Below the pieces are notes generated by a model. It ran no database searches, was not told the DNA's origin, and worked only from the letters and a program-made list of their open reading frames with translations. From a virus, in the IMG/VR virus record IMGVR_UViG_3300031576_001280, positions 1-21,802 of that record: a stretch of 21,802 bases of DNA; one strand, given 5' to 3'. A program made the translations under genes and the position numbers. Numbering within the stretch: the stretch's first letter is position 1; each line of letters opens with the position of its first letter. Below are positions 6,714 through 16,467 of this stretch, one piece after another.

Positions 6714-7115
6714 TCAGGCGAGCTCTACAAGCTCGATCTCAACGTCGATCCGCGCCAGTCCGGCGCTCTGCTGCCACGCACCTTCGAAGCGCACGGTATA
6801 ACGTCCCTGGGTCGCCGTACCGGTCGGGTCGTGGCTGAACTTCGGCACGGTTTCCCAGGGGTCGTAAAAGTAGAACGGCTCTTGCGATGCCTTGCGGGCG
6901 TCGTAGAAGTCCCGCAGGGCCTGGAGTTCGGCCGGCGCGAGCCGCTTTCCCAGACGCCAGTGCTTCCGGCTGGTGTCGGTCAGGCGTCCCCGCTGGGCTT
7001 CGCCGTTGCGGTACTCGTTCACCTGGACCGCATACTCACGGGAGTGGACAAACACGCGAGAAAGGCTCTGCGGCAGCACCGTCGAAGGTGCTGCATTAGG
7101 AACGGACCCAGGCAC
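6714..7115 (-). CDS. DUF2460-like minor tail protein (133 aa)
   Basis: This is a small minor tail protein of the type that sits at the end of the tail tube near the hub. After a proline- and serine-rich start come the hallmarks of the DUF2460/minor-tail group: a basic WRLGKRL stretch, the helix LQALRDFYDAR, the aromatic FYFYDPWE motif, then a TVRFEG strand and a final IDVEIELVEL strand. The same order of motifs appears at the N-terminus of the next, much larger gene, so the two look paralogous. The start is GTG at 7115, chosen because GGAG lies 10 bases before it and because it begins three bases after the TGA of the upstream gene. The lambda equivalent by position would be gpM, but I do not see enough to equate them. 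Confidence 0.72.
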   Translation of the reverse strand: MPGSVPNAAPSTVLPQSLSRVFVHSREYAVQVNEYRNGEAQRGRLTDTSRKHWRLGKRLAPAELQALRDFYDARKASQEPFYFYDPWETVPKFSHDPTGTATQGRYTVRFEGAWQQSAGLARIDVEIELVELA

Positions 7116-8827: not shown

Positions 8828-11800
8828 TCAGCTCGTCAGCGTTCCTGGACTCAACTGCAAGCTCAGCATCTCGCGGCGGCCGGCGTTGGCTCGCGTGGCC
8901 GTCATCGTCGCGCCTTGAACCAGGCGTGGATTGTTGGCGATTGCCTGAACCGCTTCGCCCTGAAGCAGCGCCGTCGTGGCCGGCCCGTCGAGTTGGATCA
9001 CGATGGGTCCAGCGTTCTGCGGCGTCCCGGCACTGATGCGGTCGAGGCCGATAGTGGGCAGGCCGCCCAAGGAGGGCAGCGGGCTGGCGTTCGAGAAGCC
9101 GGGTTGCTGGTACAGGGAGCCGCCGCTTTCCACGAGCGTCACCGGTCTTGACGTGGCTGGCATTCCCGAGACCCGCTGGCCCGTGGCCATCGCGTAGAGT
9201 TCGATCAGATCGCGGATCTGTGGACTGCGGATCGCCACGTCAAGATTCCCGCCGAAGCCCTGCTTGGCAGTGTCCACGATCTGCCGCAGGATCGCTTTGT
9301 CCGAGATGGCGACACCGTAGATGGCCTTGATCTTCTCTCGCGCCTTCTCCTGGGCGCCCTTCACGAAGAGCCGGATGGTGCCGGCGATGGCCCCGGCGAT
9401 CGCACCGATGGCCGCGCCGACCGGGCCACCGAACTTGAAGCCGATCAGGGCGCCGCCGCCGGTGGTCATGGCGAGACCGGAAGCCCCGCCGCGCCGCAGA
9501 CCTTCCATGGCTAGGAGCGCGCCGCCCATCAATGCGGCGTCCGACTTGCCAATCGCCGACAGCTTTTGGCCCATCGTGGCCGCCTGCCAGGTGGTGGCCA
9601 TGCCCGGGCCGAGTTGTACGCTACCGCCGACGCCGAAGAACGACTTCAATCCGGGTACCATGCCGGCGAAGTTCGCGCCCCACGTGCTCGCGGTTCCCGC
9701 CGGGGAGCCACCCATCGAGACCGGTCCAGTGAACCCAACCGTGCCGCCCGGTGCGCCGGGAATGCCAAACCCTCCGAGGCCCGGCACGCCGCCGCCACCG
9801 AAGACTGGGACCGCGCCGATCCCCAGTAGGGTCCCGAGCCGCCCCAATGAACCGCCGCCCCCAACACCGCCTGGAGCAAGGGACACCCGGGTCCCCATGA
9901 ATAGTTGCATAAGCATGGCGGCCACCCGGCTGGTGATCACGTCCTTGATGGCCGTGAGCAGGGCGGTTTTCAGGGAATTTCCGATGGCCGACCAGATGGA
10001 TTGGGACTTGGTCAGCAGTGCGTCGAACACGCCCTCGGCTTGGCGCTTGAAGGACTCGAAGATCTGGCGGTTCTGGTCCCGGATCGCCTGCGTCTGCCGG
10101 ATGGCGGCGTTCTCGCGGGCGGCGGCGATGGCCGCGTCGGTCTGTTCTGACATCTGCTGCCGGATGTCCTCGCGCTGCTGGGTTAGTTCGGCGATCCGTT
10201 GGTTGATTCGCTCGGCCGTGTAGCCCAGTGAGCGCAGGCGGGACTGCTCCTCCAGCGCCATGCGGAAGGTCTCCATGTCGAACAGGCGCAGCTTGATCTC
10301 GTGGACCTTTTCGAGGTACTCGACCTCGATCTCCATCTTGCGCTGCTCGACGGCGAGCTTCTGCCGGAGCGTCTGGGCATCGGCCGCTTCGAGCGCGCGC
10401 ACCTGGGCGTCGCGGGAGAACCCAGCACGCTGCTCCTCAAAGCCATAGACCTTTTCCAGGTGCTCGACGGCTTTGGTCGCCACGTCTTCCTCGTATTGAA
10501 GGCGCTTCTGGTAGAGGTCCGACTCCCAGGCGAGCCGCTGCTGGATAGCCTCCTGCTGCTCCTTCAGGTACGCGGCCATCTCCTCCTTCTGCATCGCCCG
10601 GACCTTGGCGCTCAGTTCCCGCTCGAGGTTGGCCCGTGTCTCTGCCAACAGCGTGAACTTGTGCAGCGCGCCCTTTTCGTCGACGAACGTGCTGTACTTG
10701 AGGGCATCCCTTTGGACTTCGAGCAGTGCCTTGGCCGGGCCCTTGATGGACGCCTGTTCAGCCTGGAGCGCCGCCTCAGCCGAACTCCGGACCGCCTCCA
10801 TCTGCTTTTTGCGGATCTCGCGGGCCAGTTTGAGCTGCTCTTCGGTGGGCCCAGTGTCGAGTTTCAGCTTTGGGAGGTTTTCCCCGAAGATCCAGTCCTC
10901 CTTCCCCAAGAGCTTACGTTTGCCGCCTGTAAGCGCCTCGCGGATGTCTCCCTCCGTGAAGCCCATCTCCTTCATCTGGGCAGCCGTCTTGCCCTGGCGC
11001 ATCGCGTCGATGATCTGGGCCTTCTTGATGGTCTCCCCGAGCGATTCGTTCAGCTGGTCGAGCTTCTTCTTCTCGTTCCAGAGGACCAGTCCGAAAACCG
11101 CCACACCGGCCGTGAGCAGAGCGAAGGGGTTCGCGGCGACCCACGCGCCGATGGCAGCGAGCCGAAACGCCTGAAGCGCCTTCACGACCGACAGGATCTT
11201 GGGCGCGACCTCGTAGGCCACGATGACGATGGCGATGTTCTTGATGGCTTCGGCGAGCGTGGTGAGGTGCCCCACATTGTCTTTGGCCCACTGCGCGAGA
11301 TCCTTCAACGTGCCCAGGAACTTCTTGTACTCTTCCTGGAAGTGCGCGCCGAGCTCCTCCTGCAAGTCGTGGAACTCCCGCTTCAGTCCCTTCAGCATCG
11401 ACTCGGCTTCGCCGGACGCGGCGGCGTGGGCGCCCTGGATCTTTGCGCCTTCGCGCATCACGGCGTTGTAGCGGACCTGTTTCTCTTCCGCCTCCGTGAG
11501 GGCGCGGCCCAGTTTCAGTTCCTGGAGCGTGACGTCCTTCTGGAAATCCACGAAGATGCCCATGCTTCTCAGACCGCGCGAAGCACCCGATTCGATGGCC
11601 TGAATAATGCCTTCGATAGCCTGCCCCGCAGACACGTTTTCAATCGCCGCCGCGTCTTTGGCGAGCTTCGCCAAGCCCTCGGCTTTCGACAGTTCCAAGC
11701 CGGCGATTATCAGCCGGTCAATCGCATGCAATGCCTCTTCGTTTTCGAAACCGATCCGCTGGATGGCCTCGGCATATCTCATGGCCTCACCGGCACTCTG

Positions 11801-12112
11801 CCCGTGCGCGCGGGCCAGCTGCTGGGTGACAACGGTCATGCGGGACACCTGGGCGGCGGCCTGGACCGCGCCGACCGTCCAGTCCTTGGCCCAAGTGAGC
11901 GCGGTTTTGATGACGTCGGCGAGGAGGTTGCCAGCGGTCGCGCCCTTCACCATGCTCGCCGTCATCCCGTCGATGCCCTGCGAAGCGCCCTTGGCCGCGC
12001 TGACGGCGGTGGTCTCGATGCTCGACAGTCCGGCGTTCACGCTCTTGATGGAGACATTGGCCTTGTCGGCGTCGACCTGGATGACGAGTTGAAGGGTGTT
12101 AGCGGCGGCCAT
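8828..12112 (-). CDS. Tail tape measure protein
   Basis: This 1094-residue protein determines tail length and is ejected with the DNA; it corresponds to lambda gpH. It has the usual tape-measure layout. The N-terminal 280 residues are Ala-rich and helical. Hydrophobic segments at about 290-350 (including IAIVIVAYE and FALLTAGVAVFGLVLW) could span a membrane. A long charged coiled coil covers about 415-690, rich in Glu, Gln, Arg and Lys. A Gly/Pro-rich flexible region follows at 735-880, and a second Gly/Ala hydrophobic stretch lies near 885-915 (VGAAIGAIAGAIAGTI). Its ATG overlaps the end of the frameshifted chaperone frame by 14 bases, typical for this gene pair. Tube length scales with tape length; about 1100 residues suggests a tail somewhat longer than lambda's, if the usual proportion holds. 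Confidence 0.92.
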   Translation of the reverse strand: MAAANTLQLVIQVDADKANVSIKSVNAGLSSIETTAVSAAKGASQGIDGMTASMVKGATAGNLLADVIKTALTWAKDWTVGAVQAAAQVSRMTVVTQQLARAHGQSAGEAMRYAEAIQRIGFENEEALHAIDRLIIAGLELSKAEGLAKLAKDAAAIENVSAGQAIEGIIQAIESGASRGLRSMGIFVDFQKDVTLQELKLGRALTEAEEKQVRYNAVMREGAKIQGAHAAASGEAESMLKGLKREFHDLQEELGAHFQEEYKKFLGTLKDLAQWAKDNVGHLTTLAEAIKNIAIVIVAYEVAPKILSVVKALQAFRLAAIGAWVAANPFALLTAGVAVFGLVLWNEKKKLDQLNESLGETIKKAQIIDAMRQGKTAAQMKEMGFTEGDIREALTGGKRKLLGKEDWIFGENLPKLKLDTGPTEEQLKLAREIRKKQMEAVRSSAEAALQAEQASIKGPAKALLEVQRDALKYSTFVDEKGALHKFTLLAETRANLERELSAKVRAMQKEEMAAYLKEQQEAIQQRLAWESDLYQKRLQYEEDVATKAVEHLEKVYGFEEQRAGFSRDAQVRALEAADAQTLRQKLAVEQRKMEIEVEYLEKVHEIKLRLFDMETFRMALEEQSRLRSLGYTAERINQRIAELTQQREDIRQQMSEQTDAAIAAARENAAIRQTQAIRDQNRQIFESFKRQAEGVFDALLTKSQSIWSAIGNSLKTALLTAIKDVITSRVAAMLMQLFMGTRVSLAPGGVGGGGSLGRLGTLLGIGAVPVFGGGGVPGLGGFGIPGAPGGTVGFTGPVSMGGSPAGTASTWGANFAGMVPGLKSFFGVGGSVQLGPGMATTWQAATMGQKLSAIGKSDAALMGGALLAMEGLRRGGASGLAMTTGGGALIGFKFGGPVGAAIGAIAGAIAGTIRLFVKGAQEKAREKIKAIYGVAISDKAILRQIVDTAKQGFGGNLDVAIRSPQIRDLIELYAMATGQRVSGMPATSRPVTLVESGGSLYQQPGFSNASPLPSLGGLPTIGLDRISAGTPQNAGPIVIQLDGPATTALLQGEAVQAIANNPRLVQGATMTATRANAGRREMLSLQLSPGTLTS

Positions 12113-12425
12113 GGGTTTGTTCGCGCTCGAGTCGATCTCGCTCCTCCTCGACGAGCAGCATGGTGTAGAACTCGTCCGCGGCTATCTCATCGAGGCCGAC
12201 TCCAACGCCCAGCTTGAGTGCGGCGCGAAGATCGAGTGCCCGGCGGATCAACTGGCCCGGTTCGGAGAATTGCGCTGCGTCGAGCCGGTCGAGGGGACAG
12301 TGGTCGCAGCGGCCACCGTCATCCGGGGCATCCGGACACAGACCCGGATCGCACAGTTCCTCCCGCCGCAGGGCCCAGTGAATCAGGAACCGGAGGGAGG
12401 GCTGCTCGGGCCACTCCCCGTTTGA
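12099..12425 (-). CDS. Tail assembly chaperone, -1 frameshift extension (GT-like)
   Basis: This open frame has no ATG, GTG or TTG until well past its middle, but translates into a convincing protein that fills the otherwise empty gap before the tape measure. It lies in the -1 frame relative to the G-like ORF, is open through at least the last 150 bases of that ORF, and ends with TAA 14 bases inside the tape-measure gene. In lambda the same position holds T, made only as a gpGT fusion by -1 slippage. If slippage occurs at the TTT codon, the fusion has 314 residues, of which 108 come from this frame. The extension includes RFLIHWALRREEL, then four cysteines spaced C-x4-C-x9-C-x2-C that may bind zinc, then an acidic helical tail. 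The start given is the likely slip point, not an initiation codon. Expression mechanism is inferred from layout. Confidence 0.8.
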   Translation of the reverse strand, partial: SNGEWPEQPSLRFLIHWALRREELCDPGLCPDAPDDGGRCDHCPLDRLDAAQFSEPGQLIRRALDLRAALKLGVGVGLDEIAADEFYTMLLVEEERDRLEREQTHGRR

Positions 12426-13042
12426 AAACTTGCTGTGCTGTCCTCCTGGAATCCAGCGTCCAGCGCGTCGATGGTCGCTTTCACGGTGACCGCCTGGTGG
12501 ATGATGGGGACCGCGCCGGCATAACCCTCGGTCGACTGCGTAAGCCTCCCGTAGAGCGAGCCGGCGGCAGCGAGGTTGATCGTGAGTTCCTGCTTGTTGA
12601 AGGGCAGATCCAGCACGCGCGCGAAGCCGCGCCGGTATTCGATCACGTCCTTGGCGCTCGGCATCCGCAGGAGATGAGCGGTCAGGCCGCCGGGAACCCG
12701 CAGGCTCACCCGAAACGCGCCGGCCTCCGGAAGAACGTCGTCCACGTCCGCCTGGCTGAGTTGTTCGATGATCCGGCTCGCCTCGAATGCGTCGACCTCC
12801 GGGCCTTCCTCAACCCGGATCTTGGCGAGCAGCACGGAGTCCACATCCTCGGAGCTTGGAATGACCGTCTCGGAGATCCCGCGGCCCAACTGCTTGATGA
12901 TGATCTTCCGGCGCCTCTGCCGCTCCGTCCATTCCTCGTCAGTCGGAAACCGGACCTTGACGGTCTTTGTCCCTTCGGCCGAACGAAGCTGGACCTCCAC
13001 TTGCCGTCCAGCGTCAAACACAGCCTTCTTTTGCTCTTCCAT
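12383..13042 (-). CDS. Tail assembly chaperone (G-like), 219 aa
   Basis: This ORF lies between the tail tube and the tape measure, where lambda-type phages encode the chaperone that coats the tape measure during tail assembly. The frame is open upstream to 13141, but the start at 13042 is preferred: AGGAGG lies six bases before this ATG, overlaps the stop codon of the tube gene, and the resulting protein begins MEEQKKAVFDAG. Residues 1-60 are charged (TDEEWTERQRRRKII), the middle is alpha/beta, and the last 25 residues are Ser/Gly/Pro-rich low complexity, typical of a tail encoded beyond a frameshift site. I see no enzyme motif. The identification rests mainly on position, size and the partner frame that follows in -1. 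Confidence 0.75.
   Translation of the reverse strand: MEEQKKAVFDAGRQVEVQLRSAEGTKTVKVRFPTDEEWTERQRRRKIIIKQLGRGISETVIPSSEDVDSVLLAKIRVEEGPEVDAFEASRIIEQLSQADVDDVLPEAGAFRVSLRVPGGLTAHLLRMPSAKDVIEYRRGFARVLDLPFNKQELTINLAAAGSLYGRLTQSTEGYAGAVPIIHQAVTVKATIDALDAGFQEDSTASFQTGSGPSSPPSGS
12394..12447 (-). promoter_or_regulatory. Probable programmed -1 frameshift signal
   Basis: Within the G/GT overlap lies an internal Shine-Dalgarno-like AGGAGG (12442-12447). Thirteen bases further on is T-TTT-C (12424-12428), where a Phe tRNA can slip back one base without mismatch, and shortly after G-GGG-A (12415-12419), which allows the same for a Gly tRNA. GGGGAG (12414-12419) can pair with CTCCCT (12394-12399), one pair being G-U, around a 14-base loop. 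An upstream Shine-Dalgarno and a downstream stem are the known stimulators of -1 shifting, as in dnaX. No canonical X-XXY-YYZ heptamer is present, so the exact slip site is uncertain. Confidence 0.5.
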
Positions 13043-13052
13043 AGCTGACCTC

Positions 13053-14087
13053 CTATTGGCAGATGCCATCGGTGTTGCACAGCGCCACGGCCGAGAGAAC
13101 GCCGTTGGTCGCGTCGTATTGCGGCTGGCACTCAACGGCAACCGTGACCAGCCCGTCCGTATCGCCCACCTCGGCAGCCGAGAAGCTGACCTTGTGGAAA
13201 GTCACCGTGAGCTTGTTATTGGCGTCGTACTGCAACGCGATCACAGCGGTCCCGGTGGTCTGGTTCTTCAGGCTGGTCAGTTCCGGCGAACCGCTGGCGA
13301 ATCGTGCCACGAACTTCAAACTCCCCTGGCGGTTGCCGCACTCCAGGCGCCCGCGAATCGCTCCCGAGGTGGCATCACCCGCGCTCTGGAAGCCAGAGCC
13401 GGGGAAAAACCCTGCATCGAGGCGAATGTTGTTCTTCCAGCCGAAGTCCAGCGAGACGATGTTCTTGTTGGTGACGTAGTCAACGCTGTTGATGGTGAGG
13501 GTGAGCGAAGCTGAAGGCAGCAGCTTCTCTACGGTTGCGGCCGGGAGTGTGATCCCAGATGGTTCCGTGAGCTTGCCCGAGCTGACGAACTCGATGTTGA
13601 TCTTGCTGTTGGCGCGGCCCGGCCCCGAGCCGACCATAATGGTCCAGCCCTCAACGGCACACCCCACGGCCATCCGGTCGATGACTGACGAACCGCCCGG
13701 CCGGATCTGCTCGATGAAGCTGAAATACGGCAGTTCGATTCCGTCGGCAGTTGGGTTGAGCGGCGTGCACGTGTAGGTGAAGTTGGGAGTCGCGCCGCTC
13801 TTGACCACCTTGCCGAGGCCGAACGCCATGGCCCAGGCGGCGATGTCGGAACTCAGGTACTTCTCGATCGTGCCCGCGATGTCCCAGGAAGTCTTGAAGA
13901 CCTGCGTCGCAAACTCGTGGCCTTTGCCAAACTCCTCGGCGTCGCTCTCGGTGTTGAGTTTCGGGTTGGCAAGCGCCGCGTTCAGCTTCTTCAGTTGCCA
14001 GATGTTGGCGACCAGGTTGGCTGTGGCGATGTCGGTCTGCTTGCCCTTGCCAAAACCGATCAGGATTTCACGAATGTTCGCGGACAT
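13053..14087 (-). CDS. Major tail tube protein (V-like)
   Basis: This 344-residue protein most likely forms the tail tube, polymerising in rings around the tape measure. It begins with a helical segment (IREILIGFGKGKQTDIATAN) and continues as alternating strands with GxF, NITSxx-like and SLDFGWKNN motifs, as in the large two-domain tube proteins of siphoviruses. It sits directly upstream of the chaperone/tape-measure block, the position of lambda V. ATG at 14087 is preceded at nine bases by AGGAGG, so high expression is expected, fitting a major structural protein. The start region overlaps the last 20 bases of a tiny upstream gene. The last residues contain several cysteines (VAVECQPQYD, ALCNTDGICQ), unusual for a tube protein. 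Family assignment is by pattern and context. Confidence 0.82.
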   Translation of the reverse strand: MSANIREILIGFGKGKQTDIATANLVANIWQLKKLNAALANPKLNTESDAEEFGKGHEFATQVFKTSWDIAGTIEKYLSSDIAAWAMAFGLGKVVKSGATPNFTYTCTPLNPTADGIELPYFSFIEQIRPGGSSVIDRMAVGCAVEGWTIMVGSGPGRANSKINIEFVSSGKLTEPSGITLPAATVEKLLPSASLTLTINSVDYVTNKNIVSLDFGWKNNIRLDAGFFPGSGFQSAGDATSGAIRGRLECGNRQGSLKFVARFASGSPELTSLKNQTTGTAVIALQYDANNKLTVTFHKVSFSAAEVGDTDGLVTVAVECQPQYDATNGVLSAVALCNTDGICQ

Positions 14088-15459: not shown

Positions 15460-16467
15460 TCAGGCCTTGGTGCCCTTGACCAGTACCTCCGGCCGCAGGC
15501 AGACCGGAAGCGGGTTGGACTGCGTGTGCACATCCGTGCCGCGCCCGAACTTGCGCGGTTCCTGCTTGGCGTAAAGCGGCAATCCCAGCGTGTTCGCCGT
15601 CTCGTTGAAGTCCGCCGGCGCAAAGAAGGTCCGGAAGGTGTTCGCGGTCCCCAGGGGGAAGAAGTGGGCTTCGTCATCGGCGATGAACTTGCGGACATTG
15701 CCCGCCGCGTCAGTCGCCTGGCCGCGGTACTCCTCGAAGGTCACCCCGCCGAAGGTGAACCCGGTGCGGTAGTCGTTGCCGAGTTGCTGGTTGCGCTGGA
15801 AGTACATGAACGCTTCCTTCACCTTCGCGTGCGTGGTGAAGGCATCGTAGAAGCCCTGGGAGCACAGGCACATGACACCCGTCATGAACTCGCCCTTCAG
15901 GTTGTCCTCGATGTGCCGCTTCACTTCGAGCACCTTCAGCAACACCTCGGTCGAGGCGGTGCCCAGCACGAAGCTGACCGTCTTCGCGGTGATGCTGAAC
16001 TCGCTGTAGAGGTCGTACAGCGTCGAGCCGTCCGCATCCAGGATCACGCCCTTCAGCGCCCCCATGCGCAGGTACTCGAGCGTGATGGCGTGCTTGTTGC
16101 GCATGTTCTGCAGCTTCAGCGCCAGCAGATTGGAGACGGCGTCCGTCTCGGTCTCCGAGCCGAACGCGCGGATGCCCTGGACCTCCTCGGGCAGCACCGC
16201 ATCATCGTGCGGGATGTGCGGGATCACGAACGACCGCACCTTGCGCTTGCCCGTGGTGCCCAGAGTGCCCGGAGCGCCCACCGGCTGCGTCGGAAGCAGG
16301 TTCAGCACGCCGCTCATCTCCTCGATGATGATGGTGCGGGTGCGCACACCTGTCGGCGTCATCAGGTTCAACTGCTCCAATCGCCCGTAGGTGTTCGGGA
16401 TCTTGTTGATGGCGGCCGTCAAGGCCACCATGTCGAAAGCGTCAGTGGCAAAGGGGTTCAGGATCAT
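15460..16467 (-). CDS. Major capsid protein (lambda gpE family)
   Basis: This 335-residue protein forms the icosahedral shell with the HK97 fold. Features typical of the lambda gpE family include the N-terminal FDMVALTAAINKIPNTYGRL, the RTRTIIIEEM strand, a long basic/Gly loop (GTLGTTGKRKVRSF) corresponding to the E-loop region, the HDDAVLPEEVQGIRAFG segment, a spine helix rich in NLLALKLQNMR, and a C-terminal beta domain with TFGGVTFEEYRG and the motif DEAHFFPLG. Length matches lambda gpE closely. ATG at 16467 has AAGGAG eight bases upstream and lies three bases after the stop of the decoration gene, as D and E are arranged in lambda. High expression is expected. Confidence 0.93.
   Translation of the reverse strand: MILNPFATDAFDMVALTAAINKIPNTYGRLEQLNLMTPTGVRTRTIIIEEMSGVLNLLPTQPVGAPGTLGTTGKRKVRSFVIPHIPHDDAVLPEEVQGIRAFGSETETDAVSNLLALKLQNMRNKHAITLEYLRMGALKGVILDADGSTLYDLYSEFSITAKTVSFVLGTASTEVLLKVLEVKRHIEDNLKGEFMTGVMCLCSQGFYDAFTTHAKVKEAFMYFQRNQQLGNDYRTGFTFGGVTFEEYRGQATDAAGNVRKFIADDEAHFFPLGTANTFRTFFAPADFNETANTLGLPLYAKQEPRKFGRGTDVHTQSNPLPVCLRPEVLVKGTKA

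Follow-up and report, generated by a model that had tools for sequence, protein, structure and literature searches.

The window, by which we mean the whole 21,802-nt stretch analysed here (IMG/VR virus record IMGVR_UViG_3300031576_001280, positions 1 to 21,802), probably produces a pair of tail assembly chaperones, G and GT, by programmed -1 frameshifting at a working tetramer slip site. Most ribosomes would read G to its stop codon, and a minority would move back by one base with tRNA-Phe on the TTT of AGT TTT CAA. The tRNA-Phe would re-pair perfectly on the overlapping TTT one base upstream, and reading would go on into T, resulting in a 314-residue GT. An upstream AGGAGG, predicted to pair with 16S rRNA, together with a hairpin that starts 5 bases downstream, would hold the ribosome at the site. 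By analogy with lambda, G may coat the tape measure protein and T may recruit tail tube subunits; T carries a four-cysteine element that is probably zinc-binding. G/GT is a known kind of chaperone pair, and the family described here is new and unannotated, with a variant slip site.

Reading frames of the putative tail assembly chaperone locus

All of the morphogenesis genes of the window are on the minus strand, and the late gene order is lambda-like, with the head genes identified by Pfam followed by the tail genes. The upstream head module, also lambda-like, consists of GpA terminase, portal_2, S49 protease, decoration protein D (HDPD), capsid E (cap_E), and FII-like Phage_attach. A putative G-like tail assembly chaperone gene (12383..13042, minus strand; 0 frame, 219 aa, ATG to TGA) lies between an ORF of the size of a tail tube gene and the tape measure ORF. 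The former (13053..14087, minus strand; 344 aa), upstream of G, was assigned by synteny as a putative tail tube protein. The latter (8828..12112, minus strand; 1094 aa) was assigned as the tape measure protein from its position and length, and no match to a curated family was obtained for it.

The -1 frame is open from ca. 12812 to 12099 on the minus strand. Its T extension (12099..12425, minus strand; 108 aa) has no start codon of its own, as ATG, GTG, and TTG are absent from the first 58 residues past the slip point, and it overlaps the ATG of the tape measure gene (12112) by 14 bases. Gene callers are likely to miss the T domain because of this lack of a start codon. Slippage at TTT (12427..12425) was computed to yield a G-T fusion of exactly 314 residues with the predicted junction sequence ASFSNGEWPEQPSLR; slippage at TTT would give ASFSNGEW. 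Hence, the 108-residue frame without an ATG, GTG, or TTG before residue 59, the 14-base overlap, and the 314-residue product, all of which had been proposed in a sequence-only reading of the window, were recovered.

Distribution and conservation of the G/GT family

A first viral scan with G yielded 26 contigs. Alignments of T and G were then used to scan viral sequences twice more and to scan a set of 84,980 genomes once. These scans gave a total of 234 loci besides the window, many of which overlap on the same contig. A profile search, adopted after two motif patterns written by hand had failed or recovered only a minority of the loci, detected an open-frame T match in 234 of the 234 loci. 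When the window T was compared with those of relatives, dN/dS was 0.06-0.16, with the changes falling mostly on third positions of T-frame codons. The window T is thus under strong purifying selection, a measure that cannot date the loss of the stop codon adjoining the slip site described below. No relative with an intact G had a second frame destroyed by stops, and a consistent start codon at the beginning of the second frame was seen in none. The earlier proposal of a G/GT -1 frame therefore held beyond chance.

It is very unlikely that T instead has its own translation start within G, at a non-standard codon reached from AGGAGG or through reinitiation. While AGGAGG looks like a ribosome binding site and CTG and ATT codons occur in T from residue 14 on, the -1 frame contains no ATG, GTG, TTG, CTG, or ATH at a usable distance past AGGAGG, and internal initiation at AGGAGG was ruled out for this reason. 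Furthermore, the conserved element past AGGAGG in the relatives is the slip heptamer and not a start codon, and the conservation of T begins ahead of any candidate start.

Most of the loci belong to phages or prophages of Acidobacteriota. The named hosts were almost always Acidobacteriota (Bryobacterales, Solibacteraceae, and Terriglobia), with one Planctomycetaceae bin, and the window appears to be a phage of soil Acidobacteriota. The locus from the bin named Planctomycetaceae (L207) was nested among Acidobacteriota loci in the tree, reflecting either misbinning or a host jump. A sampled search of the phylum to which the genome carrying L199 belongs found the family in 3 of 396 genomes. Some genomes (those of L208, L209, L211, L216, L225, L195, and L196) had two or three copies of the T gene each, which suggests several related prophages.

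The G proteins of most relatives were 63-78% identical. In a FastTree tree of 139 G+T proteins, which has many open forks and whose deepest branches (L026 and L232) were too long to place, the window stood alone on its own branch, next to a group in which all three canonical slip-site types occur; its highest identity on the tree was 76%. No tblastn match to G or T was found in 50,697 phage records (GenBank collection). As a separate observation, the major capsid protein (15460-16467) was up to 67% identical to that of Wolbachia phage WO, which was at the top of 1204 matching phage records, yet G and T had no match in the same collection.

Proposed slip site of the window and its relatives

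We compared 147 distinct sites, using the conserved EWPE of T as the alignment anchor; the degenerate loci L204 (frame offset just past TGG), L227, and L233 (both without G) were not counted. A canonical heptamer was present in 131 of the 147 sites (ca. 90%), namely C CCA AAC in 96, A AAT TTT/C in 27, and G GGA AAC in 8. In the window, no X-XXY-YYZ heptamer occurs in the overlap. The alignment position of the relatives' heptamers is occupied there by A AGT TTT, followed by C (12425..12431, minus strand), whose core tetramer T_TTT is at 12428..12425. The non-canonical slip site that had been read from the window was therefore real for the window itself, but the heptamer-less state did not extend to the family as a whole; on this comparison, heptamer loss is a trait of the window's lineage. 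L046, L062, L073, and L215 each have a pair of heptamers that overlap and are in frame, G GGC CCA and C CCA AAC.

In the relatives, the G stop is usually 0-1 codons past the heptamer, and about 13 codons earlier than that of the window. In L023, only 9 nt lie between the opening of the -1 frame and the end of the G stop, and because the overlap is only 9 bases, the heptamer must be the slip site. The slip stretch of the window has the same base count as those of the relatives. L234, which is identical to the window over its 27 available T residues, differs from it over the slip stretch by six substitutions and no indel. Since GCA AGT TTT CAA of the window is aligned with GCA AAT TTT TGA of L234, the window's site would be of the A AAT TTT type, in which the P-site codon became AGT and the stop became CAA. 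The comparison fits a descent of the window's site from A AAT TTT.

Transcriptional slippage, or a sequencing or assembly error, as the source of the frame change or of the odd site is scarcely credible. The site does have four consecutive Ts, and the virus record was assembled from a metagenome. However, four Ts are short for polymerase slippage, and the frame change is found in all relatives, including those whose sites have no T run. The six substitutions without an indel against L234, an AAT-TTT relative, are unlike an error, and other, independent assemblies also have A AGT TTT.

The other heptamer-less sites (n = 12) were A AGT TTT (six sites), G AGT TTT (two sites), and C AGT TTT, A ACT TTT, A AGT TTC, and A GAT TTT (one site each). 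Thus, T_TTT or T_TTC was kept in 13 of 13 non-canonical sites, including the window, which has the Z_ZZN tetramer pattern with T_TTT in the 0 frame at the shift point. This retention in all reduced sites points to single-tRNA(Phe) slippage, and tandem slippage seems unlikely because the serine tRNA on AGT would re-pair poorly in the -1 frame (AAG). Codon choice was also skewed: TTT was present at 37 of 40 TTY sites, as compared with phenylalanine encoded as TTT in 148/874 G codons (17%), and serine was encoded by AGT at 11 of 11 such sites, as compared with 43 of the 1124 serine codons of G (ca. 4%). Mapping the non-canonical label on the tree required ca. 8 changes, of which well supported branches force at least 4; one clade (L096, L104, L207, L208, and L209; support 82) had non-canonical sites only.

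We consider it highly improbable that the window's slip takes place elsewhere, for example on ACG GGG A downstream or at an earlier point of the long overlap with the T frame. Such sites are physically possible, as the -1 frame is open for ca. 400 nt upstream and G runs past GGGG, but the relatives end G ahead of the GGGG run, and their -1 frame may not open until the heptamer itself. In addition, for a G_GG.G construct, the signal measured in E. coli was ascribed to initiation and not to frameshifting (PMC4066793). GGGGA was ruled out as the slip site since G of the relatives ends upstream of it. Of the two runs that the sequence-only reading had offered as candidates, the T run was therefore retained, lying at the position of the relatives' heptamers, and G-GGG-A was discarded.

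The evolution of a slip site is rarely visible, and ca. 150 related sites of one phage family show it here. Within this family, C CCA AAC, G GGA AAC, and A AAT TTT have been exchanged for one another, and sites have repeatedly been reduced to a T_TTY tetramer. This amounts to a natural mutagenesis series that indicates the essential part of the slip site in bacteria far from E. coli, and this family series is the most useful result of the analysis, more than the single window.

Putative frameshift stimulators

AGGAGG (12442..12447, minus strand) is a Shine-Dalgarno (SD)-like candidate stimulator; a distance of 12 nt separates the end of its GGAG core from the P-site codon. An SD match of at least 5 nt was present upstream in 74% of sites, as compared with 41% by synonymous resampling. 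The spacing was fixed at 9 nt in most sites or at 12 nt in the AAT-TTT class and the window.

A predicted hairpin, GGGGAGTGGC/GCCCTCCCT, with a GGGGAG/CTCCCT stem (12394..12419, minus strand), starts 5 nt past the slip site. The 51-nt stretch of the window folds at -18.7 kcal/mol, and 8.5% of its synonymous versions fold at least as strongly. Over the 51 nt that surround and follow the conserved WPE, the mean folding z was -1.36 (144 sites, synonymous controls); at a control position it was -0.18. Across the 144 sites, 89% of cells paired in the nine-pair stem of the window, as compared with 50-67% with slid partners, counts in which the related sequences are not independent. At 13 sites, the doubly wobble pair of the stem was changed from G-C to C-G. 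Since the hairpin overlaps invariant protein sequence, its conservation is partly that of the protein, and stem conservation may be taken as support for a stimulatory hairpin rather than as proof. AGGAGG (12447..12442), the T run (12428..12425), GGGGA just downstream, and the stem (12419..12394) had all been pointed out in the window beforehand and are present, with AGGAGG and the stem kept above synonymous expectation across the family. Both known kinds of bacterial stimulator, an upstream SD and a downstream hairpin, are therefore found at this site; stimulators were expected because tetramers are barely shifty in E. coli without a strong one (PMC4066793).

The stop adjoining the slip site is present in every intact relative and gone in the window. 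Since no other intact locus lacks a 0-frame stop next to the slip site, the window may have a weakened or recently broken site. In the stronger form of this explanation, the family uses G/GT frameshifting while both the heptamer and the stop of the window have decayed, and GT is absent or made at a useless level; we regard this as unlikely. It is favoured by the absence of both elements and by L230, the sole other locus that has a -1 T frame and a G remnant with no adjacent stop, and in which G is disrupted upstream. However, the altered part is the part that was also lost in twelve other sites, and T_TTT, the 12-nt SD spacing shared with the AAT-TTT class, the hairpin, and T are all intact. 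The head genes, the tape measure gene, and the other large ORFs of the window are likewise open. Functional tetramer slippage is thus the reading that we prefer for the window. In L230 itself (around 506-766), the site reads G AGT TTT TGG and the G stop is absent; this locus may represent a prophage that has decayed, or a poor assembly, and it is weak support for stop loss because its G is disrupted.

The T domain and its four cysteines

The motif C-x4-C-x9-C-x2-C in T (12297..12353, minus strand), already noticed in the window as a possible zinc site, proved to be a family character. All four cysteines were present in 141 of 141 sequences, with the spacing C-x4-C-x8 to 10-C-x2-C in 138 of the 140 pattern-matching sequences. 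Zinc is the natural guess since an invariant CxxxxC...CxxC occurs in a cytoplasmic protein, and zinc binding by this element is plausible. The AlphaFold2 model of T was helical (pLDDT 85.6), and the cysteine loop had a low value of about 65.

Neither T nor the G of the window matched a Pfam or PHROG family, and one relative gave a weak match to PHROG 344 'tail assembly chaperone' (E 0.067). Fold searches of T and G against solved structures and viral models yielded no convincing match: the best hits of T (Z 2.9) were unrelated proteins, Mu FS-gp41 was low in the fold list (E 0.21), and the match to BFVD H9YT29 covered 53 columns only (E 0.67). Profile searches of the PDB gave chance-level matches only, and a literature search by title and abstract for cysteine- or zinc-bearing tail chaperones found nothing relevant. 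A wider proposal is that the tandem heptamer was given up repeatedly in this family in favour of slippage by tRNA-Phe alone on T_TTT, the window being the most extreme member because it lacks the adjacent stop as well, and that T is a zinc-stabilised adaptor unlike described tail chaperones. We put this proposal forward tentatively, rating its chances slightly below even.

Comparison with known frameshift systems

The slip heptamer of lambda is G GGA AAG, to which G GGA AAC of some relatives is close. As in lambda, the window has G between the tail tube and tape measure genes, a -1 shift near the end of G, and a start-less T frame that reaches the tape measure gene. Unlike lambda, its T has four invariant cysteines and its slip site is A AGT TTT C without a heptamer or an adjacent stop; no sequence similarity was detected between its proteins and described G or T families, including those of the lambda gpG/gpGT tail chaperone frameshift (Xu, Hendrix and Duda 2004; reviewed in PMC5009743). 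HK97-type tail chaperone fusions, confirmed at 6-7% in reporters (PMC3711429), have the same arrangement of genes, and a product of a few percent would likewise be expected here; for the T domain of the window, no homology was detected in Pfam or PHROGs.

With a stimulator, tetramers in E. coli rank A_AA.G >> U_UU.C > U_UU.U, with 0.26 to 5.6% frameshifting for the six best motifs (Sharma et al., PMC4066793), and such known rates come from hosts other than that of the window. Among natural IS tetramers, A_AA.G and U_UU.[U,C] predominate (PMC4066793). The U_UUU/U_UUC frameshifts of the IS1/IS3 families resemble the proposed mechanism in combining a T_TTY tetramer and a stimulator with single-tRNA re-pairing, but they occur in transposase genes, not tail genes, and have other stimulators (PMC4066793). 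AAGTTTT also matches the two-one-four pattern as named in PRFect, whose 'twoonefour' motif is among the patterns inferred from annotated phage (SEA-PHAGES) frameshifts (PMC10885494). That motif was derived from annotation without evolutionary comparison, whereas here the connection with A AAT TTT can be seen in a single family. The slip-site variant proposed for the window thus agrees with the published tetramer rules and with this motif. The E. coli dnaX site (A AAA AAG) likewise combines a slip site with an upstream SD and a downstream hairpin; it differs in being in a cellular gene and in using tandem slippage of lysine tRNAs.

Elsewhere in the window, a 133-aa protein (6714-7115) gave a match to DUF2460 below the threshold (E 6.6e-5) and is possibly a tail tip component.
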